Notes under the pieces: model-generated | What the model was told of the DNA's origin: nothing | The model's input: only the letters and a program-made list of their open reading frames with translations | Database searches by the model: none | Shown here: piece by piece, positions 6,682 through 22,046 of the stretch | Position numbering within the stretch: the first letter of the stretch is position 1 | Layout of the letters: each line of letters opens with the position of its first letter | Origin: a virus | Reading direction: 5' to 3' (one strand) | Length of the DNA stretch: 23,964 nt | IMG/VR virus record: IMGVR_UViG_3300008625_000073 | Coordinates: 1 to 23,964 of that record | Position numbers and translations under genes: made by a program

Positions 6682-6732
6682 TTAGCCTCCTAGGAATCCT
6701 ATTTGGTTGTTCCTGATAGAAAGTTGCAGTGT

Positions 6733-6753: not shown

Positions 6754-8610
6754 AAGTTCCATCCCCATTTGTCCCTCCAACTGAGTCAACAACTCAGGAG
6801 GAACACCACCCGTAGGAGCAAATGCTCCGCCCTGGGCAGGCAGCGGCGGCATCGCCCCGTTGGGCGGCATTCCGCCGCCAGGAGGAGCACCCTCAGGCCC
6901 CTCGGGGGCCATCGGCTGCTGCTGCATCATAAACTTTTCGGGATTTTTGATGTCGAACCCGTCGCGCAACACATGCAAAGCCAACTGTGCAGGATCAATC
7001 ACCGTTCCCACCAGAGGCGCAACAGCATTCAACAAACTGATGGCCTGCTGCTTGCGAATCGTGTCATTGATCGGCTGAGTGGAACCACCCTCAACAGTAA
7101 AATCAAACTCGCCCACAATGTCTTCACGGGCATAAGCCACAAACTCGTCGTTACCGTCGGGACCAGCGATACGGGCAACCTGCTCACCAGTCATGTACTG
7201 CTGCATCAACTGCAAGACACGCCTGGCGATCTGCCCAATAGCCAACTCCACAATCGCCAACTTGTCGGCAGCCCGCGCATTGGCGGCATCGGCAATAATC
7301 GAAGCCTCAGTGGCCGTACGGCGAATCTCAGGCATCTGCCCACGGGCGTACTCGTTTACACCGCTGACCGTGTTGATGTCTTGTTCAATAATGTTGCTGT
7401 AAGCGTAAATCTCGGGGCTTAGCGCCGTCTGAGGCATCGGCATGACAACCTCAGACAGCGGCTTGTTCTCATCGACCACGGGCACCAAACGGCCATCGTC
7501 GTCAGATTCCAGGGCCTCGCGGCCCTCGGGACCGAAACTGCGTTCGTGGTACAGGTACTTGCGGGCGTAGCGTTTACGGTCATTCATCAACTGCGAACGG
7601 GTCTTATCCAACTCCAGTTGCAGCGATTCAATCGACTCCAAATCACCCAACGGGTAAAACCTGTCAGGAATGTCGTAGTTCCTTAGCATCACGAACGGCT
7701 GACCGTACGCGTACGGCATGGGGGTCGGATCAAGAAGGAACTCGTCGCCGTTCTCGGCGCACACACTGACGGTATTTGACTCGATGTCGTAGTACTCGTA
7801 CAGGGTTACACGGTCGTCGTCAACGTACTGCTCTGTTCCGCCCAAACCGTCTTCGCGGGCTCCCTTCACACCCGCATCGGCACTTAGGCGTTTCCGCACC
7901 GACGGCTTGTACCGCTTGTCCGACTGGACATCCTCCAGGGACCGCACAATGCGTTGCGCAATCCAGGTGACATCATCCATGCAGGTTGCTTCAGGGTCAA
8001 CGAATACGTCGAACGGGGAAACCCGTTCGACAAACGCCTGATCCTCCACAATCGTCATGGTTGTTGTAGGCAGATTCGCTGAAATCTCTTCATCTGTGGG
8101 TAGTTCCCCAGCGAACTCGGGCATCTGCACGGCGGCAGCGTCAGCGACAGCGACCTGTTCAGCGTACAGGGCTTCCAGGTCGAGGTCCCCCAGGGAGCGT
8201 TCCTGCTCAACGAACCGCCAACCGACCTTCAACCAGCCGTGGCCAAAGATCAAAAAATCTTTGACGGCACGCCGAAACGGCTTCTGATAGTCGTGATGCC
8301 GCCACAAATAGTTGATGACGGCCTCATTGGTGGCCGCACGCTCCGCACCCTGTGGGGTCGTAGCCGACACCACAATCTTTGGATGGTTCACCGCAACAGA
8401 CGGCGAAATCACATTGATCGTCGAAAACGCCAGATTGACAGCGATCAGATCCGACTGCGTAACTGTTGTGGACGGCCAATGCTTCCCACGGTACAAATCA
8501 CCGAGCCTGCGCCAGGTCTCGTCGTAGCCCTCGTCGTCACGCCACTTGCGGGCCAACTCCAGGCGACGCTTATACGCATCGAACCGTTCCGAACGCGTCT
8601 TACGAGCCAC
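6742..8610 (-). CDS. Portal protein
   Basis: The 622-aa protein has the length and character of podovirus portal proteins. The N-terminal helical region (RKTRSERFDAYKRRLELARK) is followed by NVISPSVAVNHPKIVV, the FLIFGHGWLKVGWRF clip region and acidic segments. A long helical section follows (SLQLELDKTRSQLMNDRKR, then NTVSGVNEYARGQMPE), and the last 65 residues are Pro/Gly/Met/Gln-rich and flexible. It forms the dodecameric channel at one capsid vertex, docking terminase during packaging and the adaptor afterwards. GTG directly abuts the stop of the upstream 89-aa gene, with AAGGTGG seven nt upstream. The next gene is the scaffold. Confidence 0.92.
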   Translation of the reverse strand: MARKTRSERFDAYKRRLELARKWRDDEGYDETWRRLGDLYRGKHWPSTTVTQSDLIAVNLAFSTINVISPSVAVNHPKIVVSATTPQGAERAATNEAVINYLWRHHDYQKPFRRAVKDFLIFGHGWLKVGWRFVEQERSLGDLDLEALYAEQVAVADAAAVQMPEFAGELPTDEEISANLPTTTMTIVEDQAFVERVSPFDVFVDPEATCMDDVTWIAQRIVRSLEDVQSDKRYKPSVRKRLSADAGVKGAREDGLGGTEQYVDDDRVTLYEYYDIESNTVSVCAENGDEFLLDPTPMPYAYGQPFVMLRNYDIPDRFYPLGDLESIESLQLELDKTRSQLMNDRKRYARKYLYHERSFGPEGREALESDDDGRLVPVVDENKPLSEVVMPMPQTALSPEIYAYSNIIEQDINTVSGVNEYARGQMPEIRRTATEASIIADAANARAADKLAIVELAIGQIARRVLQLMQQYMTGEQVARIAGPDGNDEFVAYAREDIVGEFDFTVEGGSTQPINDTIRKQQAISLLNAVAPLVGTVIDPAQLALHVLRDGFDIKNPEKFMMQQQPMAPEGPEGAPPGGGMPPNGAMPPLPAQGGAFAPTGGVPPELLTQLEGQMGMELPAL

Positions 8611-9198: not shown

Positions 9199-9888
9199 TC
9201 AGGAAGGACGAGGTGTCCCACTTGCCGTCCCACGGACAGCATTAGCCCCGATTTGAAACGGATTTTCGCCGTGAGAGTCCGCCTGGCGGCGAAACCAGTC
9301 GACAGTCCAATAGTCGTCCACCTCGACAGCAAACTCGGGTGCATGCGCATACTTGCGCATCTGATTCGCCAAAGCCAAAGCCATGACACGATCATCAAAC
9401 GGCGACCCAGACATCGACCCCCGCTCATTGCGCACAAACGTACGCAACTCGGCAACCGTGTGCTTATCGCGCAACACCAACTCGTCGTTCTTCAACGCAG
9501 TAGCCAAATCGTCAATCATCAACGGCTTAGACGTACGAGTCGTCTTCCACCCATACTCCTGCGTGACCCTATCCGACACCTTGTTCAACGACCGTTTACG
9601 AAAAAGGCGAGGATACCCCAGTTGACGCAACACAGTCAACGTCGTCAAACCATGATTGTTCGACTCGACACAACACAACGCATCCCGATACCACAACCCG
9701 ACATTGAACACCTCCTGAGCCAACTCGTCAGGCGGAATATGCCCATGCCACACCGCCGCCTGCACCCCAGACGACACAGACAACACCTGGATGCACGAAT
9801 AATCGCCATGCCCCAACCCCTCAGCAGTATCAACCCCCAACACGTACGCTTCCTGGGGTTGCGGCCTCTCCCACACAACGAAACTCAC
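9199..9888 (-). CDS. Terminase large subunit, nuclease domain (separate gene)
   Basis: A 229-aa protein that is only the RNase-H-like nuclease half of a large terminase. All three acidic sites are present: D20 in YVLGVDTAEGLGHGDY, E75 in CCVESNNHG, and D165/D166 in FDDRVMALALA. The GWKTT...KPLMIDDL section typical of the family is intact. The start is placed at GTG 9888, where GTGA overlaps the stop of the ATPase gene and GGAG lies eight nt upstream; an upstream GTG at 9930 is possible but would begin inside conserved ATPase sequence. The nuclease cuts concatemeric DNA to initiate and end packaging. The normal fused protein is about 450-550 aa, and here the two halves add up to about 520. Confidence 0.9.
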   Translation of the reverse strand: MSFVVWERPQPQEAYVLGVDTAEGLGHGDYSCIQVLSVSSGVQAAVWHGHIPPDELAQEVFNVGLWYRDALCCVESNNHGLTTLTVLRQLGYPRLFRKRSLNKVSDRVTQEYGWKTTRTSKPLMIDDLATALKNDELVLRDKHTVAELRTFVRNERGSMSGSPFDDRVMALALANQMRKYAHAPEFAVEVDDYWTVDWFRRQADSHGENPFQIGANAVRGTASGTPRPS

Positions 9889-10772
9889 TGCCGAAACTCC
9901 AACACCCGTGGCTGCAAAGCATGCAGCCACCCCTCATCGCCACTGACACAACCCCGCAACAACACATCCAACACATCCAAATCAAACACAGGGTTCCCAG
10001 AACGAACAAACGCCTCCTCCGCAGTCGTCGGATACTCCTGAGCCAACTGCCAAGGCAACATCGACTGACACTTTTCCTCATACCAGGCATCGCCACGATC
10101 CTCCGTAGCAGACCACGGAAAAAACATAGGTTCAAACCTATTGGCACCAGTTTCCGCACCAGTCCACAACTGGTGAAAAAAGTTTCCGCTGCCATTCGCC
10201 GTGCTGAGACCAATGATGCGGCCACCCACATCGGCAACAGGCTCAATCGAAGCCCACGCCTCCTCGGGATTCGGTAGAAACGCCCACTCGTCCACAACAA
10301 TCAGCGTCGCAGACTCGCCACGGGCAGGATCAGACGCAGACGGCATCGACGTAATCATCGAACCATTCTCAAACGACATGCGTTGCTGATGCTCCACCAA
10401 CGAATCAGGCCCCCTCGCCACCATCCACTTCGGCAAATGCTTGAACCCGTACTTCGTTTTCCTCAACAACAACACAGCCTCACGCTCAGTGCGGCTGAGA
10501 TCAATAATGTTTTGATCATCACGAAAAAACGCCAACCAAAACTGGTGCGCAGCCACCAACGTCGTCCAACCAATCTGACGAGCCTTCAACGTCAAACTGT
10601 AACGATTCGCCGCCCACTGACGCAACGCCTCATCCTGAGCATCACGCAACTTGAACAACACACGGCCACGCGCAGGGTGCGCAATACACCAATACTTCTC
10701 CAAAAAATATTTCTCATCATCACGGCAACGACGCCATTCGGCCTCCTGCCGCAACTCCTGCAACCGCGACAA
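9885..10772 (-). CDS. Terminase large subunit, ATPase domain (separate gene)
   Basis: The 295-aa protein is the packaging-motor half of a large terminase. It shows a Walker A-like KARQIGWTT (residues 63-71), Walker B LIVVDE (157-162) and the coupling motif LSTANG (189-194). It ends at LEFRQ, just where the linker to the nuclease normally continues, and the next gene supplies that domain in the -1 frame. The start is TTG immediately after the previous stop codon and lacks a strong SD; the start is therefore less certain than the product. The protein hydrolyses ATP to pump DNA through the portal. The Walker residues are intact, so the gene does not look degraded. Confidence 0.9.
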   Translation of the reverse strand: MSRLQELRQEAEWRRCRDDEKYFLEKYWCIAHPARGRVLFKLRDAQDEALRQWAANRYSLTLKARQIGWTTLVAAHQFWLAFFRDDQNIIDLSRTEREAVLLLRKTKYGFKHLPKWMVARGPDSLVEHQQRMSFENGSMITSMPSASDPARGESATLIVVDEWAFLPNPEEAWASIEPVADVGGRIIGLSTANGSGNFFHQLWTGAETGANRFEPMFFPWSATEDRGDAWYEEKCQSMLPWQLAQEYPTTAEEAFVRSGNPVFDLDVLDVLLRGCVSGDEGWLHALQPRVLEFRQ

Positions 10773-11271: not shown

Positions 11272-12852
11272 CTAACCCCTCCTTTGAGTTTCCAACAAAG
11301 CCGCCTCCAACAAACCTGCCTGGGATGCCGTAAACGCCTGAGGCGGCACCGCATACGGAGGGGTCCAACCAGGGGCGGGATTGCTTCCAAGCCACTTATT
11401 TGTTAGCAGCCACCTCATAAAGTCGTCCGTCGACTGGTTCGCGGCCTGGCCCGACCGAGGCAAAGAATGCACGCCAGGTCCAAATACTGCTTCAGGCATA
11501 GAGGAACTTGACCGTACCGTATTCGCAGCAATGGTCGCAGGATTCAACAACACTTCGCTTTCACCAATGGCACCAGCGGCGCGGGCGTCAAAAGAGGTCA
11601 GTATGTCCTTGCGGGGATTGACAACCATTTCCAAAATGTCGTGTTGCCGCTGCTGTGCCCAAGGCAGATGACTCGCTGGAGTCAACAAAGAACCCGTAGG
11701 AGGAGTCGTTGACGCCGACGGGCCAATAGGACTATTTCGCACCTGCGTCCGCAACAGCGGCATTGTCGAACCGACACCGACCGCATCGACCGACCTGACA
11801 ACAATCTCCTGCAAATCGTTTGCAACAAGGTGCGCCACACGCTCGATATGCGCTGGCTCCGACAGCCTGTTCGCACCCGCCTCCTTCAAATAGTGATTTA
11901 TCCCAGAAGAAGGGCGCCCCGAGCCACCCTCCGTTGGACCCCTGTTCCAAACGTCGTCGATGCTCTTATTGGGATTGATCCGCTCAGACAGTTGGCCAGG
12001 CCGAACCGTTCGAAGCCCCAAAACATCCCTTGTCCTAATCGTGTTATTTCCAAAGTTCTGCGGAGAAGTAACACCGTCAACCACTATGTCAGCGTATTGC
12101 TGATATACGTCAGGATCGGGACGCCCACTCCGCATGTCGTCAAGAAACGCCTTGACATCAACCGCCTCATCTTGCAACGAATAAAACCTGCCAGGATCCA
12201 TCAACTGTCCCGACGAGATGCCCTCATTCACAGCGGCACGCCCCAACGCTGCCGAACCACGCTGGCCAAGACGAATCAAAGCACGAAGACCAAAGTTGAG
12301 CGGATCAATAGGATTCATCCTAAAAGCAGCATCCACAATCGCCGACATGGACCCGTAGTCAGAAGTTGGACCTTTGTCCATCGTATGCCGCATAAGAAAA
12401 TCTTCATCCGTAACCCGATTACCCTCATCCCCCGATGAAAGAAAAGCAAGAGCAACCGCCTGACCAATAGAACGATCCTGGGCCGTGTCGTACGCCTCAC
12501 GCCAACGCCGCCCATTGAACCAATCGCCCCAGTTGACCCCCTCAGCCTCCGACATAGAAGCGTACGTCATAGCGGCCGACAACGGCTCCCGTATAAACTC
12601 ACGCCCTGGCGTATCAACCGCATGCGTCAACGCCGTCAAGAAACCCAACGAAGGTTCAACACTACCGCCCTGGGGTTCCCTATACGCCGTCGGATCAACC
12701 CGCGGCGCAGTCTCTTGCGCCGACAACAACGGCGCATCCAAAGACCCCACCTCAGGATTACGGTCACCAACCTCCAACACTCGGCGACGAGGCTGCAGCG
12801 AACGAACACCAACCGACGAATCCAACCCAGGATGAAAGGCACGAACCCCCAT
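11272..12852 (-). CDS. Large hypothetical protein, possible internal virion protein
   Basis: A 526-aa protein with no recognised domain. Residues 70-220 are helical and contain GREFIREPLSAAMTYASMSE and DAAFRMNPIDPLNFGLRALI, the kind of "DPLNF" amphipathic context seen in large internal/ejection proteins. The C-terminal third is low in charge and rich in Pro, Ser and Thr. ATG overlaps the TAA of the 376-aa gene (TAATG). It lies between TerS and TerL, an unusual place for structural genes. An ejected or virion-associated role is inference. Its G/T-rich coding strand agrees with its neighbours, so there is no sign of recent transfer. Confidence 0.75.
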   Translation of the reverse strand: MGVRAFHPGLDSSVGVRSLQPRRRVLEVGDRNPEVGSLDAPLLSAQETAPRVDPTAYREPQGGSVEPSLGFLTALTHAVDTPGREFIREPLSAAMTYASMSEAEGVNWGDWFNGRRWREAYDTAQDRSIGQAVALAFLSSGDEGNRVTDEDFLMRHTMDKGPTSDYGSMSAIVDAAFRMNPIDPLNFGLRALIRLGQRGSAALGRAAVNEGISSGQLMDPGRFYSLQDEAVDVKAFLDDMRSGRPDPDVYQQYADIVVDGVTSPQNFGNNTIRTRDVLGLRTVRPGQLSERINPNKSIDDVWNRGPTEGGSGRPSSGINHYLKEAGANRLSEPAHIERVAHLVANDLQEIVVRSVDAVGVGSTMPLLRTQVRNSPIGPSASTTPPTGSLLTPASHLPWAQQRQHDILEMVVNPRKDILTSFDARAAGAIGESEVLLNPATIAANTVRSSSSMPEAVFGPGVHSLPRSGQAANQSTDDFMRWLLTNKWLGSNPAPGWTPPYAVPPQAFTASQAGLLEAALLETQRRG

Positions 12853-13982
12853 TACTGGTTACCCAACAACGACAAACCGCCACCAGCCATCAACGCAGGA
12901 CCAGCAAACCCACCCGTTCCCACAGTCAACAAACCAGCACCAACCAAAGCCGCAGCCAAAGCCAACTTGTGCTCCAACGGCATATCTCCCACACTACCAC
13001 CAAGCCTCCTCAACACATCACGCGCCTCCTCCAAACCACGCTGATTGATTCTCCTCTGCTCCTCCGACAACGGCGCACCAGGCTTATAATCCTCGCCACC
13101 GTCACGCCCATCCCCAGACCCCTCAGGGTGGACACGCCCCACCCTCGGCGGCTCACCACCCATGCGTACGACCAAATCTTTCAACAACGAATCAGGGGCA
13201 CTAAAACCAGGAGACCCAGCAGGCAACGACTGCCGCCGCAGAGAAGGCGGCGAAACAGGCAACTTACCCGCCTGCACACCAGGCGGACCAGGCGGCAACC
13301 GAACCGAATCAAACCCCTCCAACCCCGTCAACGAAGCCACAGCCCTCGACTCATTCACAGACGGACCCGACCCCAAAGGATCCGTCCAATGCTCCCGTAT
13401 CTCAGGATCCCAAGGAACAAACCTGCCAGACTCATTATCGTACTGCCAACCCCGACGATCAGCCTCAGCGTGAATCGCATCCCAAACATGATCCCCATAA
13501 TCGCTCTCCCGCAACGGAGTCCCATAACTAGCAATCAAATCCTGCATCACACGAGCATACAACTCCTCCACAGCGCCCTCAGTATCCACCAAACCAGGCG
13601 GAAACTCCTCAAACGCCCCAGGCGACCTTTCAGACGCAAGATTCAACTCCCTGGCAGCCAAAACAGCCTGCCTCTCCACAGCCTCCACAGCATCATCAAT
13701 ATCCACAACCTCGACAGAAAGAGCACCTCGAAAGATGGGAGAAACCTCCGACAACCCGCGAGACTCCCGCGTCACCAACTCCCCAGACACGGGATCCACA
13801 ACCAAATCCCACGGATTCCGCTCCGACTCCGCCGTACCCTCAGAAACATCCGCCGTACCCTCAGAAACAAAAGCATCAAACTCGTCAAAATCGAAACCCA
13901 TCCGCTCAACATCACCAGGATTCAAAACAACAGAACGATCACGACCACCACCAACCCCCACAACACCCTTACGACCAACCAT
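12852..13982 (-). CDS. Large acidic hypothetical protein with hydrophobic C-terminus
   Basis: The 376-aa protein begins MVGRKGVVGVGGGRDRSVVL. The middle is acidic and Pro-rich with a duplicated seven-residue unit (VSEGTAD/VSEGTAE). The C-terminus (about the last 40 residues) is a hydrophobic Ala/Gly/Leu segment, LALAAALVGAGLLTVGTGGF, that could insert in a membrane. ATG 13982 is chosen because it follows the TerS stop by four nt; the frame is open further upstream but would lie inside TerS. No family is recognised. With the next gene it may form an internal virion pair; that is conjecture. Confidence 0.7.
   Translation of the reverse strand: MVGRKGVVGVGGGRDRSVVLNPGDVERMGFDFDEFDAFVSEGTADVSEGTAESERNPWDLVVDPVSGELVTRESRGLSEVSPIFRGALSVEVVDIDDAVEAVERQAVLAARELNLASERSPGAFEEFPPGLVDTEGAVEELYARVMQDLIASYGTPLRESDYGDHVWDAIHAEADRRGWQYDNESGRFVPWDPEIREHWTDPLGSGPSVNESRAVASLTGLEGFDSVRLPPGPPGVQAGKLPVSPPSLRRQSLPAGSPGFSAPDSLLKDLVVRMGGEPPRVGRVHPEGSGDGRDGGEDYKPGAPLSEEQRRINQRGLEEARDVLRRLGGSVGDMPLEHKLALAAALVGAGLLTVGTGGFAGPALMAGGGLSLLGNQ
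13828..13869. repeat. Perfect 21-bp tandem duplication inside the 376-aa gene
   Basis: A 21-bp unit (13828-13848) is repeated without a mismatch at 13849-13869. It encodes a seven-residue duplication, VSEGTAD then VSEGTAE, in frame. It looks like a recent slippage event in a flexible acidic region. Confidence 0.9.
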
Positions 13983-13986
13983 AGAC

Positions 13987-14445
13987 CTACCCACCAGAAC
14001 CCCCACGAACCTCAGCAACCAACCCCTCCAACTCAGCCGCCAACTCCTCATCAGACAACCCCGAAACCAAACGATCATCCTCAACAACCACATGACGCTT
14101 CGGAGTAAACTTCTCCACATACTGCAAATACAAAGAAGCAGCCTTCACATCCCCACCCGCAGCAGCCCGCCACAAAGACTCCACAACCGACTGAGTGCGC
14201 TCAGGATGCACATTCAAATCAGTAGCACGCCGATCCCACTCACGCACAAAACGCGGATCCCGCTTCCACTTCCGAACCGTCGAAGCCGCAACCCCATTCA
14301 ACTCAGCCCAATCCTTCTGAGTCGACGGCACACGACCCTCCCCATCCAACAACCAATCCAAAAACAACGCCCACTTCTCAGGCATCACCTCAACCCCCGA
14401 AACAGGATCCCTAGACCACCCCCTACCGCCACCAGACTGAATCAC
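13987..14445 (-). CDS. Terminase small subunit
   Basis: The 152-aa protein starts MIQSGGGRGWSRDPVSGVEV. Residues 40-72 (STQKDWAELNGVAASTVRKW, then KRDPRFVREWDRR) form a helix-turn-helix typical of phage small terminases. Residues 85-112 (VVESLWRAAAGGDVKAASLY) make the oligomerisation helices, and the C-terminus is acidic. GTG 14445 is chosen because GGAGG lies six nt upstream; the longer open frame has a non-conserved Cys/Gly-rich N-terminus covering repeats. TerS recognises the pac/cos site and loads TerL. As in many phages it is first in the late operon, next to the repeat-rich region that may contain that site. Confidence 0.88.
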   Translation of the reverse strand: MIQSGGGRGWSRDPVSGVEVMPEKWALFLDWLLDGEGRVPSTQKDWAELNGVAASTVRKWKRDPRFVREWDRRATDLNVHPERTQSVVESLWRAAAGGDVKAASLYLQYVEKFTPKRHVVVEDDRLVSGLSDEELAAELEGLVAEVRGGSGG

Positions 14446-14481
14446 ACAACACCTCCACATCAACACCCCCCATGTCCCAAA

Positions 14482-14516
14482 CCCACTTTGTACCAACCCA
14501 CTAGTACAAAAGTGGG
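14482..14516. repeat. Inverted repeat upstream of TerS
   Basis: CCCACTTTGTAC (14482-14493) faces GTACAAAAGTGGG (14504-14516) with a 10-nt spacer, perfect apart from one extra A. The right arm runs into a GTGGGACAC motif, and GTCCC at 14474 echoes it on the other side. It sits 37-71 nt before the TerS start and may be an operator or TerS-binding site. Confidence 0.75.
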
Positions 14517-14560
14517 ACACCGCAACCCGTAAAATAGGGAAAGGGAAAAAGAACGGTAAC

Positions 14561-14591
14561 GTGGCGAGCCCCCCAAAAGGGGTCTCGCCAC
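14561..14591 (-). terminator. Intrinsic terminator-like hairpin before the late operon
   Basis: GTGGCGAG (14561-14568) pairs with CTCGCCAC (14584-14591), extended by CCCC/GGGG around an AAAA loop. Read on the minus strand it is followed after seven nt by TTCTTTTT, so termination of leftward transcripts coming from the gp88-type gene is plausible. This would insulate the TerS operon. Confidence 0.6.
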
Positions 14592-14740
14592 AAGCGTACA
14601 GGGGGAGAAGCCCAAGAAACCCCCCACAAACCACCCCCGCGCCCAAACACCGCCCCGTTTGTACTACACCACCCCCCACCAGCCAAGTTACAAAAACTTG
14701 CACGCATCGGCCCTCAAGTAATAATACTTATGGGGAAGCG

Positions 14741-14752
14741 GGGGGTACCCCC
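14741..14752. repeat. 12-bp perfect palindrome GGGGGTACCCCC
   Basis: A self-complementary 12-mer, followed by a second inverted repeat CCCACC-AGG-GGTGGG (14750-14764). Both lie between the AT-rich palindrome at 14716-14729 and the AT-rich TAGATAATAT box, at the point where strand composition reverses. Confidence 0.8.
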
Positions 14753-14829
14753 ACCAGGGGTGGGTGCCTTGTGCCCGATAGAGTGTAGATAATATGCGTT
14801 ACCTGTACCGTTGCCGGGCCGCTGCACTC

Positions 14830-14871
14830 GTAACGGTAACGGTGCCGCCGACACGCCGACACGGCGACACG
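14830..14871. repeat. Iteron-like tandem repeats: 2 x GTAACG and 3 x 8 bp
   Basis: GTAACG occurs twice in tandem at 14830-14841. Seven nt on, CCGACACG (14848-14855), CCGACACG (14856-14863) and GCGACACG (14864-14871) follow head to tail with a single difference. The arrangement resembles initiator-protein iterons, although the units are short. Confidence 0.75.
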
Positions 14872-14961
14872 GCCTCGGCGGCCTGCACGCCCGTTGTGGT
14901 AGCGGTTCGGTGGGTGGGCTTGGTGCGCGTTGGGTGTACTGCTGGGGTGGGTTGAGGGTGG

Positions 14962-15900
14962 TTACCGTCGGATGAAAATGATGTCGGGGGCGGTGGCGGA
15001 TGGGTTGGCCCAACAGGCTCTGCATTTGTGGCAGGCGCCTTGGTGGTGGTTGGTGTTTCTCCTGGGCGTGGTGATGGGCATGGTTCCGCTGTCGACGGGG
15101 CAGGTGATGCGGCGGCGGTCTCGGTTGTGGTCGAGGCTGTCGAGGAGTGTGTGTGCTTGGTTGAGGGTGTCGGCGAGGATGGCTACGGGTAGGTGGCTGT
15201 AGGTGGTGGTGGTTAGGGCTTGGCGGGTTCTGTCGGTCATGGTTGGGTCGGTTGACAGGTAGAGGGTGAGGTGGTGGCCGTCGAGTTGTCTGGTGAGGTT
15301 GGCGAGTGGTTCGGCAGGGTCGGGTCGGTCGAGGCCGTAGGAGCGTGTGTAGAGCCAGGTGCGTATGTTGGGGAGTTCGTCGTAGGCCCAGGCGATGGCG
15401 GCGGACCAGGCTTGGCCGTCTTGGGTGGTGGCTAGGTCTCCGCCTGCGCCGATGCGGAGGGTGGGTTGGCGTACGGGGTGGCCGTTGTGTAGGGCTGTTG
15501 GTCCTGGTTGTGTTTGGGTTCGGTGGGTTTCTTGGAGGATGGCGGCGCACAGGTTGGTTCTGTCGGTCACGGTTAGGTTCTTCCAGATGGTGAGGCGGTT
15601 GGTGGTCATGGCGCCGAGGGTGGTGCGGCCTAGTTCGAGGCGGCGGGCGTAGCAGGTGAGTGTTCCGTCGGGCGTTTTATGGCAGTAGGTGGATGCGCCT
15701 GGGCAGGTGCCGCCATGCTCTGGCGGTCCTGATGGGAGCCAGGTTGCGTTGCGGACGGTGTCGCTAGTGCGCCCGTTGGGTGTTGCGATGGGTCCTGTCT
15801 TGGTGTCTCTGGCTAGGAACCCGCGTGCTAGTTGTGGTGGTACGGCGTGGGGGTTGATGGCGTGGTTGGTGGTGGTGATGGTTACTGGGGTGGTGGTCAT
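14962..15900 (-). CDS. gp88-type cysteine-rich phage protein
   Basis: The 312-aa protein has an N-terminal cysteine cluster, CPGASTYCHKTPDGTLTCYA (C66, C73, C83), and a C-terminal C267...C290-x2-C293-x2-C296 ending in WANPSATAPDIIF. This layout, with RIGAGGDLATTQDGQAWSAA in between, matches the phage gene-product-88 family, frequent in actinophages and of unknown activity; the cysteines suggest a metal or Fe-S site. ATG 15900 is chosen because AGGAGG is 11 nt upstream; the open frame starts earlier but overlaps the 41-aa gene. Its coding strand is A/C-rich, opposite to the late operon, so it belongs to a compositionally different block. Confidence 0.8.
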   Translation of the reverse strand: MTTTPVTITTTNHAINPHAVPPQLARGFLARDTKTGPIATPNGRTSDTVRNATWLPSGPPEHGGTCPGASTYCHKTPDGTLTCYARRLELGRTTLGAMTTNRLTIWKNLTVTDRTNLCAAILQETHRTQTQPGPTALHNGHPVRQPTLRIGAGGDLATTQDGQAWSAAIAWAYDELPNIRTWLYTRSYGLDRPDPAEPLANLTRQLDGHHLTLYLSTDPTMTDRTRQALTTTTYSHLPVAILADTLNQAHTLLDSLDHNRDRRRITCPVDSGTMPITTPRRNTNHHQGACHKCRACWANPSATAPDIIFIRR

Positions 15901-15902
15901 GG

Positions 15903-16028
15903 TTATCGGTTCCTCCTGATGGTTGAGTAGATCCATCCAGCGATGACGCTGGCGGTGGTGGTGGCGCCGAGTGCGGCGAAGCCGACGATAGCGGCGTCGA
16001 GGATGGCGGGGCTTGTGATGCAATGCAT
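15903..16028 (-). CDS. 41-aa membrane protein
   Basis: The peptide MHCITSPAILDAAIVGFAAL continues GATTTASVIAGWIYS and ends TIRRNR. It has one long hydrophobic segment over about residues 8-34 and a basic C-terminus. ATG is preceded by AGGAG five nt upstream. The stop lies two nt before the ATG of the gp88-type gene, so the two are co-translated. A different open frame through the same bases is Arg/His-rich and is a shadow. No family is recognised; a holin-like or small membrane-anchor role is possible. Confidence 0.7.
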   Translation of the reverse strand: MHCITSPAILDAAIVGFAALGATTTASVIAGWIYSTIRRNR

Positions 16029-16106
16029 TGTGTCTCCTGGGTGGTGGTTGGTGGTTGCAGGGTAGTTGGGTTCTTGGGTGGTGTCTGTTTATTACGGTTG
16101 TGTGTC

Positions 16107-16133
16107 GGCTTCATTTTTGCGGAGCAGAGCCGT
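16107..16133 (-). promoter_or_regulatory. Spaced direct repeat, copy 1 (upstream of 41-aa/gp88 unit)
   Basis: GCTTCAT, four unmatched bases, then GCGGAGCAGAGC and one base before GT (16108-16133). The same pattern with identical spacing stands at 17687-17712. Both copies lie about 80-110 nt before a minus-strand gene start and in the same orientation to it, which suggests a promoter element or regulator site. TAATAA occurs 13 nt downstream on the minus strand and might serve as a -10. Confidence 0.5.
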
Positions 16134-16142
16134 GGCGCGGGC

Positions 16143-16166
16143 GGTCCCCCAGTTTCCTGGGGGACC
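16143..16166 (-). terminator. Strong hairpin after the DUF932 unit
   Basis: GGTCCCCCAG and CTGGGGGACC form a perfect 10-bp stem around TTTC, extended by one more C-G pair. It lies 22 nt after the stop of the 83-aa gene. There is no T-run on either strand, as often in high-GC actinobacterial phages, so termination is likely but not certain. Confidence 0.65.
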
Positions 16167-16187
16167 GTCGGGGGTGGGTGTGGTTGG

Positions 16188-16439
16188 TTAGGTGGTGGGG
16201 TTGGTGTCCTCCTGGTTGAGTGCGGGTCGTTCGTAGGGGTCTGCGAATGGTGGGGTAAGCAGGTTGGTGAAGATGTCGACGAGCGCCTGTTTTACTGCGG
16301 CTTTGGTGGCGATGACGGTGGTTTCGGTGTCGCTGTAGTACTCGTCGCGGATTCTTTCCGATACCTGGTCTTCGATGGCGGCCCATATGTCGCTGTCAGG
16401 GACCTCGACGTATTCGTTGATGCTGAAGTAGATATCCAT
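16188..16439 (-). CDS. 83-aa acidic hypothetical protein
   Basis: The product starts MDIYFSINEYVEVPDSDIWA and is acidic and helical in the middle (AAIEDQVSERIRDEYYS). The ATG overlaps the TGA of the DUF932 gene (ATGA) with GAGG upstream; the longer Arg-rich open frame through this region is a shadow of DUF932. No domain is recognised. Coupling to the DUF932 gene suggests they work together, perhaps as partner or inhibitor; there is no direct evidence for a function. Confidence 0.7.
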   Translation of the reverse strand: MDIYFSINEYVEVPDSDIWAAIEDQVSERIRDEYYSDTETTVIATKAAVKQALVDIFTNLLTPPFADPYERPALNQEDTNPTT

Positions 16440-17581
16440 CAGGCTGCCGCCTCTGTCAGCATCTTGGTGTACGCGGTGGACAGTGGGTATCCGTTGTCGC
16501 CGCTGACGGCGAGGGTGCGTTGGATGGTGACGGCTGCAGGGTGGCGCTTTACGCCGTTGCGGCTCGGTTGGGTACGGTGGTGCTGCTCGTACCCTTGGAG
16601 TGCCATCAGGGCGCCCCAGGCGGTGCCGCGGTGTTCGGCGGGTACGTGGCTGCTGTAGTACTCGTCGACGATGGCGTCGTGGCGGTTTTCCCACACGGTG
16701 AGGCTGCGGCCGTCTTCGGTTGGCTTGTCTTTGCCGTATGCCTGGGCTGCTACCTGGTCGACTGTTTCGTTGAGAAAAACCGTCGCTGGGGCTGGGGTGT
16801 CGAGGAGCCGCGCTATGGCGGCGTCTGTTTCGGTGGCGGCTCCTACCATGTCGCGGAGCACCCTGCGGGCGACGGTGAGGTTGTCGCGCACGTTGGCGGT
16901 GTGCTTGATGCGCACCTCTTGGGGTGCTGTCGACAGCAGCGAGGCCCTGAAGGTGTTGGCGCACACGATGATGTATGGGGCGAGGCATCCGACGAGGGCG
17001 GTGGTGCCGTCGTGGCTGGTTCCCAGGTTCATTGAGTAGCCGCGTGCGGGGAGACCGTCGAGGGCGTCGATGTCGGGGATGCCGACGGATACGAACGCCA
17101 GGCGGCGGTCCCTGAGGGTGCCTGTCGACAGGATCGGCAGCGAGACGCCCCGTTCTACCTGGGCGGCTTCTTGGAGGGTGCCTGCCAGGTCGACGAGTTC
17201 CTCGTTTTGGACAATGGTGTATTTGTCGGTGGGGAAGTAGTGCGGCGGGTTGTTGCCGCAGGCGACGCCCTTGTGGTCCTCAATGATCGCGTCGGGATGT
17301 AGGACGAGGTAGCCAGCGTCCTGCAGGTCGATGCATGCATCCTGGAGGGCGAAGTCGAGAATCTGGGAGTCGTCGACGGTGCGTCTGGCGTCGGCCAGGG
17401 GGACGGTGTTGATGGTCCATTCTCCGACGCCGAGCACCTTGCGTACCAGGTCGAGATCGAGGCCGTCGGGGGTGTCGTCCCAGCGGTGGGTTTCGCCGAG
17501 GCTGTGCCAGTTGCCCATGCCTGAGAGTGGGTGTCCTTCGATGAGGACCACCCTGTCTGTGCCTGTTATTTCGTGTGCCAT
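16439..17581 (-). CDS. DUF932 phage/plasmid-like protein
   Basis: The 380-aa protein starts MAHEITGTDRVVLIEGHPLS and contains MNLGTSHDGTTALVGCLAPY and IIVCANTF, followed by IKHTANVRDNLTVARRVL. These are the diagnostic parts of the DUF932 / phage-plasmid-like (TIGR03299) family, usually 300-400 aa. Biochemical activity is unknown; members are found in phages, plasmids and actinobacterial genomes. ATG has GGAGG seven nt upstream. It is first of a two-gene minus-strand unit ending at the hairpin at 16143 and diverges from the early plus-strand operon. Confidence 0.85.
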   Translation of the reverse strand: MAHEITGTDRVVLIEGHPLSGMGNWHSLGETHRWDDTPDGLDLDLVRKVLGVGEWTINTVPLADARRTVDDSQILDFALQDACIDLQDAGYLVLHPDAIIEDHKGVACGNNPPHYFPTDKYTIVQNEELVDLAGTLQEAAQVERGVSLPILSTGTLRDRRLAFVSVGIPDIDALDGLPARGYSMNLGTSHDGTTALVGCLAPYIIVCANTFRASLLSTAPQEVRIKHTANVRDNLTVARRVLRDMVGAATETDAAIARLLDTPAPATVFLNETVDQVAAQAYGKDKPTEDGRSLTVWENRHDAIVDEYYSSHVPAEHRGTAWGALMALQGYEQHHRTQPSRNGVKRHPAAVTIQRTLAVSGDNGYPLSTAYTKMLTEAAA

Positions 17582-17763
17582 GTCTCAACCTCCTGGGTTG
17601 GTTCGGTTCGCTATTTGCGGACCGAGGCCGCCAGTGTATGGCGTACAGGGTGGTGAACGGTGGATCCTGGCATATGCGTTGTTGGCGCTTCATCGCAGCG
17701 GAGCAGAGCGGTACGCTGTGCCCTCACATAGTCGGTGCCCTTGGTGGGCGGATCGGAGACAAC
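17582..17763. promoter_or_regulatory. Divergent intergenic region between leftward and rightward operons
   Basis: These 182 nt separate the DUF932 gene (leftward) from the first plus-strand gene. They contain copy 2 of the spaced repeat (17687-17712), a TACGCT box (17712-17717) that could be a -10 for the rightward operon, and CATATG (17671-17676), a possible -10 for leftward transcription. No good -35 accompanies either. No ORF with a ribosome site is seen. Confidence 0.5.
17686..17712 (-). promoter_or_regulatory. Spaced direct repeat, copy 2 (upstream of DUF932 unit)
   Basis: GCTTCAT (17687-17693), four bases, GCGGAGCAGAGC (17698-17709), one base, GT. It matches the copy at 16108 outside the four-base spacer and the single variable base. 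It lies 106 nt before the DUF932 start. Confidence 0.5.
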
Positions 17764-18024
17764 ATGCCAGCGGTTATCTTGAGGAATGGGAGGCGTCCGC
17801 TGTTGTGGTCGACGCGTCCAGGTGCCCGTCGTGAACGGGGGCACGTTGGCACGGTGCTGGCGGAAACGGACGGCCACCACCAGTATGTCGTGTGGTCGAT
17901 GTTTTCCGACGACGGCGCCGTGTGGGATTGTGTCGGAGGCGCCTACTTTCACCAGTTGACGGAAGCGACAGACGAGTGGGCCTCCAGGGCCAGGAAGGAC
18001 GGTAGTCATGGGTCGGCAAGGTAA
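17764..18024 (+). CDS. 86-aa hypothetical protein, first gene of the early operon
   Basis: The product starts MPAVILRNGRRPLLWSTRPG and contains an aromatic region (HHQYVVWSMFSDDGAVWDCV). ATG 17764 has GGAG five nt upstream; the open frame extends back to 17575 but lacks an SD there and covers the promoter region. It overlaps the next gene by 17 nt. No domain is recognised. As the promoter-proximal early gene it may act on the host or on regulation, but this is only positional. Confidence 0.7.
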   Translation: MPAVILRNGRRPLLWSTRPGARRERGHVGTVLAETDGHHQYVVWSMFSDDGAVWDCVGGAYFHQLTEATDEWASRARKDGSHGSAR

Positions 18025-18358
18025 CGGTGCCGCAGTGAGGGTCGAGGCGCAGTGTCGTCGCTGTCCCCGCGTGGAGTCTGTCGAGGTTGAGCGGTCGGCG
18101 TTGAACAGGTTCGAGTTGCGGGCTGGGCTGGTGCAGAACCTGTTTCCTGACTTGTCGGCCTCCGAGAGGGAGGTTGTGATGGGTTGGCGCAACGGTTCGT
18201 TTCTGTGTTCGTCCTGTTGGGACGAGGTGTTCGCCGAGGAGGCTGTCCCTGAGCCTGACGATGGCTTGGATCGGCGGGAGCGTGACGCCTTTGAGGCTGG
18301 GTCTCCGACGCCTGTGTTTACGGTGTTGATGGATGACCTGTTGGGTGGTGACGTATGA
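18008..18358 (+). CDS. 116-aa protein with CxxC...CxxC zinc-ribbon pattern
   Basis: C16-x2-C19 near the N-terminus (QCRRC) and C67-x2-C70 (FLCSSC) could form a zinc ribbon. In between is a helical region (ALNRFELRAGLVQNLFPDL), and the C-terminus is acidic. ATG 18008 is preceded by AGGAAGG; the 14-nt sequence GGCCAGGAAGGACG before it is repeated exactly before the 132-aa gene. It overlaps the next gene by four nt (ATGA). Possible DNA- or RNA-binding protein; the family is not recognised. Confidence 0.7.
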   Translation: MGRQGNGAAVRVEAQCRRCPRVESVEVERSALNRFELRAGLVQNLFPDLSASEREVVMGWRNGSFLCSSCWDEVFAEEAVPEPDDGLDRRERDAFEAGSPTPVFTVLMDDLLGGDV

Positions 18359-18549
18359 GTGGGCCTCGACCATCGGCGAAGTGTTCGGCCGAGGGTATCG
18401 GCCGTGACCTGCTTGGTTTGATCGACTGGGTGGCCACTCATCGCCTGGACGTTCTCACTGACAGCGACTGGTTTAGGGAACTGATTCGTGAAGAGGTCGA
18501 GGCCGTGCTGCGGCGTCCCGAGGAGAGGCCAGGACCGTGGCCCGTGTGA
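18355..18549 (+). CDS. 64-aa helical hypothetical protein
   Basis: The product contains IGRDLLGLIDWVATHRLDVL and ELIREEVEAVLRR, two amphipathic helices, suggesting a small protein-protein interaction partner. The start shares ATGA with the stop of the upstream gene, and the end overlaps the next gene by 13 nt. No domain is recognised. Confidence 0.65.
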   Translation: MSGPRPSAKCSAEGIGRDLLGLIDWVATHRLDVLTDSDWFRELIREEVEAVLRRPEERPGPWPV

Positions 18550-18836
18550 AGCGTGGTAAGCACGGCGTGTTCATGTACGACAATGCCCGCTGCCGTTGCG
18601 ATGTGTGCCGTAGGGCGCATCGCCGCCGTGCCGCCGAAGCCGCACGGGTTCGAGCCCGCAAAAAGGCTGGAGATCGGAGGGCTGCGGCGGACAAGCGTCG
18701 AGTCCGCCCATTGCCTGCGTGGCAGGCTGGCGGGACGATGACCAGGGAGCAGTACCTGCGGGAGCGTGACGCTGACGCTGAGGTGGGTGCTCCTCGCAGC
18801 GCGGCGCCCCGCAAGACCTTTATCCCAATCATTTAG
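18537..18836 (+). CDS. 99-aa basic protein with CRCxxC motif
   Basis: The N-terminus reads KRGKHGVFMYDNARCRCDVC, then RRAHRRRAAEAAR. HG...Y...CRCxxCRxA is a motif of small basic proteins common in actinophages and actinobacteria, probably a metal-stabilised nucleic-acid binder (C19, C21, C24). The rest is Arg/Ala-rich and helical, and the C-terminus is Pro-rich. GTG start with AGGA just upstream; the start is of medium certainty. Last gene of the first early block. Confidence 0.7.
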   Translation: MARVKRGKHGVFMYDNARCRCDVCRRAHRRRAAEAARVRARKKAGDRRAAADKRRVRPLPAWQAGGTMTREQYLRERDADAEVGAPRSAAPRKTFIPII

Positions 18837-19021
18837 GGAACAAGGGTGGTGGGCGTACAGCCTGTGGCCCGTTGACACGAACCAACACCCCGCCACATAG
18901 GTAACGGGGCGGCTCGGCCGCCCAGGTGGGACACTTTGGCGTTATGGCAGGGACTACGTTCGCTTCGGTGAAGTGGTCTCCGCCCGCAGGCCCGCCAAGG
19001 CAGGCCAGGAAGGACGAAACT
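18837..19021 (+). promoter_or_regulatory. Intergenic regulatory region with TTGACA box and GTGGGACAC operator-like site
   Basis: A perfect -35-like TTGACA (18872-18877) is followed 18 nt later by CATAGG (18896-18901), a poor -10. Then come TAGGTAACGGGGCGGC (18898-18913), repeated exactly at 19275-19290, and GGTGGGACAC (18925-18934). The final part contains GGCCAGGAAGGACG, the SD region of the next gene. An ATG at 18944 opens a longer frame but lacks an SD. This is probably a second early promoter with an operator just downstream of the start site. Confidence 0.5.
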
Positions 19022-19544: not shown

Positions 19545-20312
19545 GTGATCGAGATTCCCCTCCGCCAATCATGGCTGAACACGTTCGACCGCTGCCCCGA
19601 GCAGGCCCGCCAGGAACGCCTGGGTTTGGTAACGACGCCGCCGAATAGTCACATGCTGCGAGGCAACCTGGTGCATGCCGCAATCGAGCATTGCGGCAAC
19701 ATGATGATGCAGCATGAAGCGACTCCTTCGCTGGAGGAATGCATGGAATACATGGATTCGGTAACGGCGGAACTTTCCTCCGAAGTTATTGAGTGGCGGG
19801 AAGATTACGAAAAGGTTGTTGATCGGGCACGCACCAATCTGACTGGCTGGTACAACGACTATCTTCCACTGTTGGGTATTCCAACTGGAGTTGAACAACG
19901 GTTTCGCATCACCCTCGACGAACGTGACGGTGTGCGTCTCGTCTTGACTGGTACCGCCGACTGGGTGGAGCCTCATCGGATAACAGACTGGAAGAACCCA
20001 TCGAGGGAATACCTGCAGTGGGAGCAGCGCCGCTGGAATCTGCAGGCGACGGCGTACTGTCATGCCCTGGGGATCCCCTCGTTCGCCCTGGTTGCGATTG
20101 TGGACGGTCAGGTGCAGGAAACGCTGATAGAGCGCCCAGCGGGCCATGGAGAGGCCCTGAAGGATCTCTGCTGGGCTGCTGCTGGTCTGATACAGTCTGA
20201 TCTCAAGGTCTGGCCGATGCGTTGGTCGGGATGGCACTGCTCACCAAAGTGGTGTCCCGTCTGGCAGGCTGGAGAATGCCGAGGGAAACACCTTGGTCCA
20301 AACCCGTGGTAG
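19545..20312 (+). CDS. PD-(D/E)XK exonuclease, Cas4/RecB-like with four Cys
   Basis: The 255-aa protein has GNLVHAAIEH, then LTGTADWVEPHRITDWKNPS, and RRWNLQATAYCHALG. These are the D, DxK and QxxxY motifs of the RecB/Cas4 nuclease family. C17 near the N-terminus and C232, C237 and C245 near the C-terminus are arranged like the Fe-S-binding set of Cas4/AddB proteins. It is expected to degrade or trim DNA during replication or recombination. GTG start with a weak SD (TAGGG). It is followed after 10 nt by the 253-aa protein and then the helicase. Activity and cluster are inferred from motifs. Confidence 0.85.
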   Translation: MIEIPLRQSWLNTFDRCPEQARQERLGLVTTPPNSHMLRGNLVHAAIEHCGNMMMQHEATPSLEECMEYMDSVTAELSSEVIEWREDYEKVVDRARTNLTGWYNDYLPLLGIPTGVEQRFRITLDERDGVRLVLTGTADWVEPHRITDWKNPSREYLQWEQRRWNLQATAYCHALGIPSFALVAIVDGQVQETLIERPAGHGEALKDLCWAAAGLIQSDLKVWPMRWSGWHCSPKWCPVWQAGECRGKHLGPNPW

Positions 20313-20322
20313 GAGAACAACC

Positions 20323-21084
20323 ATGACAGATACAGGCACGACCGTAACGGTCGGGTTTACCCAGAAGGTGTCGGAGGCACCGTACGAGACCGCTGATTAC
20401 CATTTCAGCATCACTCGCACGTACCCTGATTCCTTTACCGACGACGCCATCAAGGCGGAGGCGGAATCCATGTGGCACGACGCCAAGATGGAGGTGCTGC
20501 GTCAGGCAGGCCAGGAGTTCACCGTTGGGGAGGATGAACGCGTTATGCGTCTTCTCAAAAGCGGCGTGGCCCGACCTGATGCTGATCGAGGCGCCCCGTC
20601 CTCGCCGCCCGCTGCGAGTGTCGGTCCAACGCAGGCGTCGGCCCAGGCGCCTCCCGTTGCCCCATCCGCTGCCCCCGTTCTGGGAGTGAACAGCGGTAAG
20701 ATATATCCCCGTGTCGACTTCTGTCTCGGCAAGCAGTCCGTCGAGAAGCAGGCAGCGTGGAACCTGTTGGCGTTCCAACCCAACGAGTGGTCCGACGGAA
20801 GCGGCGGCACCACCAAGGTGTACGAAGTCAAGGAACACGCCGACGGCACCACCGACCTGTCGAAAGGCGGGAAGAACTTCCCGAACTTTTCGGTAACGAA
20901 GGAAGCGTTGCAGCACATCGGCATTCAGGTTGCCAACAATGTTGGGTTGTGGATCAACCCAGGCGACTCGAACGTCCCGTTGAAGGTGTGGGACCAGGCC
21001 AGCGGTCAAACGCAGGCCGATGCCGTTGACTTCGAGTGGGAGTCCCGACGCCAGGCCCTTCAGGGTTACGCATACGGGAAGTGA
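20323..21084 (+). CDS. 253-aa hypothetical protein of the replication operon
   Basis: The protein has an N-terminal domain (about 1-85, with TVTVGFTQKVSEAPYETADY and AEAESMWHDAKMEVLRQAGQ), a Pro/Ala/Ser-rich linker (about 90-130) and a C-terminal domain with WNLLAFQPNEWSDGSGGTTK and KNFPNFSVTKEALQHIGIQV. ATG 20323 has AGGAG seven nt upstream. Its stop overlaps the helicase start (GTGA). Two domains joined by a linker between a nuclease and a helicase suggest a DNA-binding or single-strand-binding role, but no known fold is recognisable by eye. Confidence 0.75.
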   Translation: MTDTGTTVTVGFTQKVSEAPYETADYHFSITRTYPDSFTDDAIKAEAESMWHDAKMEVLRQAGQEFTVGEDERVMRLLKSGVARPDADRGAPSSPPAASVGPTQASAQAPPVAPSAAPVLGVNSGKIYPRVDFCLGKQSVEKQAAWNLLAFQPNEWSDGSGGTTKVYEVKEHADGTTDLSKGGKNFPNFSVTKEALQHIGIQVANNVGLWINPGDSNVPLKVWDQASGQTQADAVDFEWESRRQALQGYAYGK

Positions 21085-22046
21085 CAGGCATCCCTGTCGC
21101 TCTCAGTGAGGCGGAGGTCGATGCCCGTTTGGAGGGCGCCGACCTCCGCCCCACGGGTACCGACTACCGTTTCTTCCGCCCCACGTCGAAAGCGGTCGAC
21201 CGATGGGTCGAATACGCTGCAGGCAGCCACGACAGGTTCTTCCTGGGTCTCGCAGAGATCGACCAGCGGATGCGAGGAGTGTGGCCGTCAGACGTTCTCG
21301 TCGTCACTGGAAGGGCGCACAGCGGCAAGTCGGCGGTGCTGCTGTCATCCATAGTGAAGAACCTGCAGCAGGACGAAAACTTTCGTGCCGTTATCTTCAC
21401 ACCAGATGAACCAGAGATCCTCGTCGTGTCGAAACTGTACGCTTTGCTTTACCTGCAAAGCCTGGAAGACGTTGAACGCGGGCTACAAGATGCCGACCCT
21501 GCCTACCTGCAGCACATCGAAGCGGCGAAACCTTTGCTCGACAGGGTGAAGATCTTTCCATCTGCGATGCCGTTCGACGAAATGTCTATAGCATTAGCAG
21601 AGTGCGAAGACTACTGGCAGGTTCGACCCCGCTTCGCAATGATCGACTTCCTGGAACAGTTGCCAATGGCATCAGGATACGAAGGCGTGTCTTCCGTGCT
21701 GAAAGGCGTCAAGGAATGGGCCGAAACAGAAAACCTGCCCGTCGGCCTCGTCCACCAGTCAGGCAAGTCATCGACGCGTGGTTCCTCCAGGGGCATGGAC
21801 GACGGCAAGTTCAACGCTGACGAATACGCCATCCTCCAGTTGAATGTGTTTCGCAAACGAGATAACCCGAAACTCGACGACCATGAGAAACGAATCCATT
21901 CGGTATCTGTTTCACTAGACCTGTGCAAGAACAAGCGTCCTCCCTGCGAGATAACCAGCCCGCCAATCGACTACTTCATGGACCCTCGCTGCGGCATGGT
22001 TCGAGAATACTTCGACTCTGACATACCAGGCCAATGGATGATGTAA
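21081..22046 (+). CDS. RecA/DnaB-type replicative ATPase (helicase-like)
   Basis: The 321-aa protein has Walker A GRAHSGKS (residues 77-84) after a strand DVLVVT, then NFRAVIFTPDEPEILVVSK, a Walker B-like RFAMIDFLEQL and GLVHQSGKSSTRGSSRG, the usual late motif of DnaB-like ATPases with a His-Gln. It probably unwinds DNA together with the primase encoded next. The start is GTG, the second base of a GTGA overlap with the previous stop; a longer open frame begins at 21036 but overlaps the previous gene. Its C-terminus overlaps the primase start by 13 nt. Confidence 0.85.
   Translation: MTGIPVALSEAEVDARLEGADLRPTGTDYRFFRPTSKAVDRWVEYAAGSHDRFFLGLAEIDQRMRGVWPSDVLVVTGRAHSGKSAVLLSSIVKNLQQDENFRAVIFTPDEPEILVVSKLYALLYLQSLEDVERGLQDADPAYLQHIEAAKPLLDRVKIFPSAMPFDEMSIALAECEDYWQVRPRFAMIDFLEQLPMASGYEGVSSVLKGVKEWAETENLPVGLVHQSGKSSTRGSSRGMDDGKFNADEYAILQLNVFRKRDNPKLDDHEKRIHSVSVSLDLCKNKRPPCEITSPPIDYFMDPRCGMVREYFDSDIPGQWMM

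Follow-up and report, generated by a model that had tools for sequence, protein, structure and literature searches.

A conserved core upstream of the terminase small subunit gene is the candidate replication origin of a little-known family of tailed phages

Why should the base composition of a phage DNA strand reverse abruptly between two genes that are read in the same direction? The question is raised by the window analysed here, the whole 23,964-nt stretch of IMG/VR record IMGVR_UViG_3300008625_000073, which is a fragment of a tailed phage of about 39-42 kb with a P22/SU10-like portal. Its family is little known, mostly marine, and infects bacteria. The left arm of the window, on the minus strand, starts with the gene of the terminase small subunit (TerS, 13987-14451), followed by a gene without assigned function (12852-13982), the ATPase part of the terminase large subunit (TerL, 9885-10772), its nuclease part as a separate open reading frame with a 4-nt GTGA overlap (9199-9888), and the SU10/P22-like portal protein (6742-8610). 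To the right, also on the minus strand, lie genes of the GP88 (PF17338, 14962-15903) and DUF932 (PF06067, 16439-17581) families. Further on, the plus strand encodes a PD-(D/E)XK exonuclease (19545-20312), a DnaB-like replicative helicase (21036-22046), an archaeo-eukaryotic-type primase (AEP-TOTE, 22034-22999), and a RusA Holliday-junction resolvase (22996-23340). The initial annotation placed the reversal near 14.7 kb and preferred to explain it by a replication origin with G/T-rich strands leading away on both sides, the alternatives being a module with a different codon history or a genome end.

Results

The reversal is as described, and stronger than first stated. Positions 13921-13980 of the plus strand hold 27 C, 24 A, 5 T, and 4 G, whereas 15181-15240 hold 29 G, 18 T, 8 C, and 5 A. 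The cumulative skews of the window reach their minima at 14,715 (GC), 14,756 (TA), and 14,727 (keto), and a maximum-likelihood fit of a single change point in the keto fraction between 12 and 18 kb also gave 14,727, with a 2-log-unit support interval of 14,716-14,756 and a log-likelihood gain of 349. The keto fraction differs by 0.42 between the adjoining 1.5-kb stretches, whereas shuffling the sequence 500 times in 300-base blocks gave a contrast of 0.28 at most; by the same measure, the largest rise in five classical phages (lambda, T7, phi29, c2, and sk1) is only 0.05-0.11. The change point falls inside non-coding DNA (14452-14961). It is flanked by TerS and GP88, which share the minus strand and whose Pfam/PHROGs matches show them to be real genes.

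Amino-acid content was ruled out as the cause by fourfold-degenerate sites, which flip sign between TerS (GC skew -0.89, TA skew -1.00) and GP88 (+0.87 and +0.92). On the plus strand, G and T make up 2% of these sites in TerS and 8% in the gene next to it, against 94% in GP88 and 81% in DUF932. Non-coding DNA switches composition too, both in the window and in the mean profile of 71 dereplicated members of the family, where the keto fraction passes from 0.44 to 0.62 across about 50 nt. The GC content is 0.63 in 14,728-18,900 and 0.56-0.57 elsewhere in the window.

The GP88 gene provides a test of gene orientation. A match to GP88 and DUF932 was found in few of the examined relatives. Where GP88 is read towards the site of the switch, as in the window, its coding strand is C/A-rich (fourfold keto 0.06-0.42), and in three relatives with an inverted GP88 the coding strand is G/T-rich (0.60-0.76). 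Because its composition depends on its orientation to this site, the bias tracks position relative to the site; neither the identity of the gene nor its amino-acid content nor the direction of transcription sets it. Gene orientation and transcription were ruled out as causes by this inversion and by the head-on GP88 and DUF932 genes of the window; the same observations show a bias that follows the direction expected of forks leaving an origin, and not that of the genes. Relatives with other genes to the right show the same switch.

The switch keeps its position across about 70 dereplicated relatives, where it coincides with a conserved core that lies 190-600 nt upstream of TerS. The core spans about 30 bases (14700-14729 in the window, minus strand) and consists of a 14-nt AT-rich near-palindrome, AAGTATTATTACTT (14716-14729, 12 of 14 positions dyad-symmetric), on which the change point falls, followed by AGGGCCGATGCGTGC (14700-14714), whose family consensus is AGGGnCRGTGCGTG. 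In other clades ATATGTATAGATAT replaces the near-palindrome at the same place. The switch thus coincides with an AT-rich element, AAGTATTATTACTT or ATATGTATAGATAT, amid GC-rich DNA, as expected of the unwinding element of an origin. When 2.9 million viral contigs were searched for exact matches, the common variant of the core turned up 48 times, and all tabulated or examined matches lie 187-598 nt upstream of a TerS gene of this family, on the same strand. The median distance from change point to core is 31 nt, with 25 of 35 relatives within 100 nt and about 10 having a local change point farther away. The core is absent from G007, whose skew minimum is still upstream of TerS. Our literature searches, which covered open-licence papers only, found no description of this element.

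Other elements surround the core. A G/C-rich inverted tract, GGGGGGTACCCCCACCAGGGGTGGGTGCC, adjoins it in the window (14740-14768), and a C-run/G-run tract lies at most 80 nt upstream of it in 33 of 49 distinct relatives. Between core and TerS, most relatives have a hairpin of differing stem sequence (GTGGCGAGCCCCCCAAAAGGGGTCTCGCCAC, 14561-14591 in the window) and an inverted box, TGTCCCA ... TGGGACA, of variable spacing (14473-14519, minus strand, just upstream of TerS). As for initiator sites, the upstream sequence showed no enrichment of DnaA-box matches (3 in 50.6 kb vs. 24 in 808 kb genome-wide), and we saw no iteron array shared across the family. A phage origin may do without DnaA boxes or iterons if it relies on another initiator, and we do not require them of every phage origin.

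The genome of the window is incomplete, and the extreme of cumulative skew expected at an origin was found in its relatives. The GC-skew minimum lies just upstream of TerS in the closed relatives (MW202803.1, G004, and G007+G014) and at the core in the near-complete contigs G021-G025. The maximum lies at 0.45-0.70 of the genome in the closed relatives and at 0.66-0.68 in the near-complete contigs; it is at 0.45 in MW202803.1 and at 0.66-0.70 in the others, and in most members it is not midway. MW202803.1 (Podoviridae sp. ct52p938, from Manatee Spring) is a complete relative with a portal 41% identical and a similar gene order; its skew switches about 400 bases upstream of TerS, at ATATGATTCCTGG, although, unlike the window, it has no match to the core pattern ATGTATAGATAT.

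The bias drops with distance over several kilobases. Across relatives, the fourfold keto fraction of the coding strand is 0.85 in TerS, 0.76 in TerL, 0.66 in the portal gene, and 0.53 in that of the major capsid protein (MCP), and in the distal arm the bias is gone after 4-6 kb. The drop is not cleanly monotonic, as values climb back to 0.65-0.85 in tail genes at a distance of 15-27 kb; codon selection could account for the low MCP values. Across members, the keto fraction of TerL does not correlate with its own distance from the core when taken alone, and does so weakly once that of TerS is subtracted.

Discussion

Our results suggest that the core at 14700-14729 and its non-coding flanks are probably where outward, bidirectional leading-strand synthesis starts in this phage family. 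The global skew minimum of the relatives at this spot, the presence of the core there, and the inversion of GP88 all support the candidate origin that was proposed initially. Leading-strand synthesis would start at the core and proceed outward both ways, displacing on each side the parental strand that has its 5' end at the core, and the sign of the skew fits the displacement of this strand. Near the core, the displaced strand may stay single-stranded long enough for deamination of C and A to bring in G and T, and its slow copying might produce the local peak of bias. Several results weigh against this reading: DnaA boxes are not enriched and no family-wide iteron array was seen, the drop of the bias is uneven and the distal arm loses it early, the skew maximum is off centre in most members, some relatives have their change point away from the core, and G007 has no core.

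Searches for DNA polymerases of families A and B gave no match to DNA_pol_A or to DNA_pol_B, the latter with a working control. The protein-primed type (DNA_pol_B_2) had no match in 15 records and none in the control genomes either, so that this search lacked a working control. Since a helicase and an AEP primase are encoded and such a polymerase was not found, the phage is probably copied by the polymerase of its host. Related terminases occur in two contigs of metagenome-assembled genomes, one in an Acidimicrobiaceae bin and one in a Euryarchaeota bin; such bins often take up phage, and therefore we claim no host.

Bacterial bidirectional origins have a GC-skew minimum at a non-coding site, the maximum elsewhere on the circle, and a G-rich leading strand (PMC7111523, PMC3269012). 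The candidate origin shares these features, but here the bias nearly saturates fourfold sites, adds T over A to G over C, and peaks within a few kilobases of the site. In vertebrate mitochondrial DNA the single-stranded H strand turns G/T-rich, which was ascribed to deamination of C and A (PMC3269012). The strand that would be exposed is likewise G/T-rich here, although in mitochondria one strand is displaced from OH, whereas in these phages the effect extends both ways from a single point, symmetrically. The origin of lactococcal phage c2 is also non-coding and adjoins late genes (a 611-bp region between early and late genes), and the minimum of its cumulative GC skew, at 7,099, falls within the annotated putative origin region (6635-7245). 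Yet c2, whose genome is unrelated, has a keto contrast close to nil (0.06 per 1.5 kb), and its terminase gene (15546-17102) does not adjoin the origin. Its early and late genes diverge from the origin, whereas GP88 and DUF932 of the window point at the core.

The genome end that the initial annotation had mentioned is an unlikely alternative, although the main one. The core would then be a cos or other packaging cut site, the switch would be the joint between the ends of the linear virion genome, and the bias would come from end-primed recombination or from an origin beside cos. Cos sites commonly sit a few hundred bases upstream of TerS. The near-palindromic core adjoins the TerS gene at just such a distance; in lambda, where TerS starts at 191, cos likewise precedes it by a few hundred bases and has a dyad-symmetric core. 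One contig of 39,978 bases (G024) starts 16 bases short of the core and has these 16 bases again at its other end, two others (L084 and L050) start inside the core, and an end that primes synthesis by invasion would give the same strand polarity as an origin. However, most core-bearing contigs run through the core, and the closure of other complete or nearly complete contigs lies elsewhere. The comparison with lambda also has its limits: most assemblies show no fixed end, and the keto contrast of lambda is small (0.09). The excess of contig ends upstream of TerS turned out, base by base, to be no proof of physical ends: the starts are scattered across 600 bases and do not pile up at any single base, and many of them lie within the G/C-rich hairpin, which suggests assembly drop-out. 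Moreover, a cut site alone cannot account for kilobases of strand bias, and resection of 5' ends would leave the opposite strand exposed. Both functions might also be combined, a single element beside TerS serving as cos and as the sole replication start, with ends that prime outward break-induced-like synthesis and long deaminated single strands that saturate the nearby genes. We give this version little credence; if true, a widespread family of uncultured phages would use one and the same signal to package its DNA and to initiate replication.

Transcription is a poorer candidate still. Divergent transcription from promoters at the core would expose both non-template strands as R-loops and bias their mutation, which would fit the sign of the skew, its strength near the site, and the outward reading of TerS and the late genes on the left. 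On the right, outward transcription would have to run antisense through GP88 and DUF932, both of which point towards the core, and in the inverted GP88 the composition of the coding strand changes along with orientation. This makes the idea very improbable. More doubtful again is that the right block owes its skew to a foreign codon history. Its GC content is indeed higher, and GP88 and DUF932 have matches in few examined relatives. Still, the GP88 inversion refutes this cause of the skew, non-coding DNA flips as well, and the same switch occurs beside other genes; the GC step is real, and the block itself possibly has a foreign source. Finally, a chimeric assembly that fused two contigs at 14.7 kb, near which assemblies of this family often break, is refuted by the same organisation in about 70 relatives and by an independent contig of 11,568 bases from another metagenome (L004), which has TerS and GP88 arranged as in the window, with both proteins 100% identical.

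With replication from the core as the favoured reading, the likely start is narrowed to about 30 bases, a signal that can be cloned and tested. Marine metagenomes commonly contain this family, and the phage collection we searched includes no isolate of it. The result also bears on a possible coupling between the start of replication and DNA packaging. The near-saturated, position-dependent bias, with genes in both orientations as built-in controls, makes these phages a natural test of how the exposure of single strands during replication shapes mutation.

Results

An abrupt reversal of strand composition around 14.7 kb had been reported in the initial annotation, and its base counts were exact on recount. 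We placed the change point of the keto (G/T) fraction at 14,727 (2-log-unit interval 14,716-14,756), within the non-coding stretch 14452-14961 of the window. The keto contrast between the flanking 1.5-kb stretches is 0.42, and reached at most 0.28 in 500 shuffles of 300-base blocks; the same measure gives 0.05-0.11 for lambda, T7, phi29, c2 and sk1, and 0.13-0.22 for four closed relatives of the window. The stretch 14728-18900 has a GC content of 0.63, against 0.56-0.57 elsewhere, and no convincing gene lies at 17.6-18.9 kb.

At 23,964 bases, the window (virus record G000) represents only part of the genome of a tailed phage. Leftward from 14.45 kb, its minus strand carries TerS (13987-14451), two unknown genes, TerL, a SU10/P22-like portal gene and further genes, probably including that of the major capsid protein (MCP). 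TerL (9199-10772) consists of two ORFs, one for the ATPase and one for the nuclease part, which share 4 nt (GTGA), and two relatives (G004, G001) likewise have two ORFs overlapping by 4 nt. To the right of TerS lie GP88 (PF17338, 14962-15903) and a DUF932 gene (16439-17581), both on the minus strand, followed on the plus strand by genes for a PD-(D/E)XK exonuclease, a DnaB-like helicase, an AEP-type primase and RusA. The sole portal relative in the phage collection searched was MW202803.1 (Podoviridae sp. ct52p938, Manatee Spring), a circular record of 42,055 bases, and IMG/VR holds many relatives. Overlapping contigs or end overlaps allowed us to close genomes of 38,742 (G007+G014), 38,898 (G004) and 40,381 bases (G001). 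The G004 genome is also contained in G010 (56,885 bases), which runs about 17.7 kb past one genome length and looks like an assembly artefact. Related terminase genes occur in contigs binned as Acidimicrobiaceae TMED189 (L240) and marine Euryarchaeota (L241), which may hint at hosts or reflect mis-binning.

Where relatives extend far enough beyond TerS, their keto minimum mostly falls 200-450 nt upstream of this gene, where a conserved signal of about 30 bases is found (the core; window 14700-14729, minus strand). In the direction of TerS, the non-coding region begins with a G/C-rich inverted tract (in 33 of 49 relatives). An AT-rich near-palindrome comes next (in most clades ATATGTATAGATAT, in that of the window AAGTATTATTACTT), followed by AGGGnCRGTGCGTG, then a hairpin and lastly a TGTCCCA...TGGGACA box. 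In 71 members whose sequences around the core diverge by more than 20%, mean keto rises at the core from 0.44 to 0.62 over about 50 nt; the median distance between core and change point is 31 nt, with 25 of 35 relatives within 100 nt. An exact search for ATGTATAGATATNNANGGNCRG over all viral contigs returned 48 stretches: in all those newly fetched, the TerS of this family follows downstream at 187-598 nt and on the same strand, and the remainder had previously been retrieved through TerS. An inverted-repeat contig with two cores (L217) looks like an assembly artefact. In one member (L089, from G007), the core is missing together with most of the hairpin upstream of TerS, and another sequence joins inside the hairpin arm, possibly by deletion or an assembly fault.

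The long hairpin (window 14561-14591, with no T-run after it) usually lies 60-140 nt upstream of TerS in relatives. Its stem sequence varies among members, its position and T-N-R-R-G-like loop are kept, and many contig breaks coincide with it. In five relatives (L127, L126, L137, L113, L131), the region 390-700 nt upstream of TerS holds arrays of several different perfect hairpins of 30-45 nt, spaced by a few tens of bases. The inverted box (window 14473-14519) immediately precedes TerS and is present in most relatives, with spacing from about 1 to more than 50 nt.

The switch is also an extreme of cumulative skew on complete genomes. In MW202803.1, whose TerS is at 41,422, the GC and TA minima fall at 41,816 and 41,821, about 400 nt upstream of that gene, and the GC maximum at 19,254; composition passes from C/A-rich to G/T-rich inside about 20 bases at the minimum, and the core pattern had no match in this distant member. 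The detrended GC minimum lies at -325 (G004) and -27 (G007+G014) relative to TerS, with maxima at genome fractions 0.66 and 0.70. In five further, near-complete relatives (G021-G025), rotated to the core, the minimum coincides with the core and the maximum falls at 0.66-0.68.

Discussion

The composition of these genomes suggests that the core is probably a replication origin, from which leading-strand synthesis would proceed outward in both directions. The main alternative, a cos site that would make the core a genome end, is rather unlikely. One relative of 39,978 bases (G024) begins 16 bases ahead of the core, with ACCATCCACGCTTATA, and has the identical 16 bases at its end (stretches L248 and L249), and two further contigs start inside the core; yet most contigs cross it, and several closed genomes break at other places. 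The two readings are compatible: through recombination an end can serve as primer for outward synthesis, and the phage encodes both an exonuclease and a resolvase.

Transcription and codon history fare worse. With genes assigned by homology, GP88 matches oriented like TerS, towards the core, have a coding-strand keto of 0.06-0.42 in relatives, against 0.76 (G024), 0.75 (L230) and 0.60 (L240) in relatives with inverted GP88. The composition of GP88 thus goes with where the gene lies and which way it points with respect to the core, so that an explanation by transcription would require antisense transcription. The same inversions exclude the proposal, made in the initial annotation, that the skew reflects a right-hand module with a different codon history. 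Amino-acid content is ruled out by fourfold-degenerate sites, which in plus-strand letters are A or C at 80 of 82 sites in TerS and G or T at 182 of 193 in GP88, despite the shared minus strand; in the next genes out, fourfold G/T is 0.08 and 0.24 in the left arm and 0.81 in the right arm, where it reaches about 0.5 beyond 4 kb.

The sign of the bias fits an origin at the core. On either side, the G/T-rich strand is the one with its 5' end at the core, which is the strand that outward synthesis would displace; the opposite strand would be exposed if exonucleases trimmed back 5' ends. The vertebrate mitochondrial H strand has a similar pattern of base changes, losing C and A and gaining T and G while single-stranded, which was ascribed to deamination of the two lost bases (PMC3269012). 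In relatives, the coding-strand value of genes assigned by homology drops significantly at every step (paired tests) from TerS (0.85, at 0.46 kb from the core) to TerL (0.76, 2.4 kb), portal (0.66, 5.0 kb) and MCP (0.53, 7.3 kb), but tail genes 15-27 kb away, called like other ORFs in relatives by a simple longest-ORF caller, are back at 0.65-0.85. Arm-wide bias and gene-specific codon selection therefore also contribute. With the gradient depending on more than distance, we hold the location of the start to be more certain than exposure as the cause of the near-core peak.

Skew minima are standard origin markers in bacteria (PMC7111523), and skews of double-stranded DNA viruses were analysed earlier (Grigoriev 1999, as cited in PMC1783863). 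The GC minimum of c2 (7,099) lies inside its own annotated putative origin region. We found no published description of the core element in the open-licence literature. Judging from sequence, it is likely to be a phage replication origin with an unusually strong strand bias.
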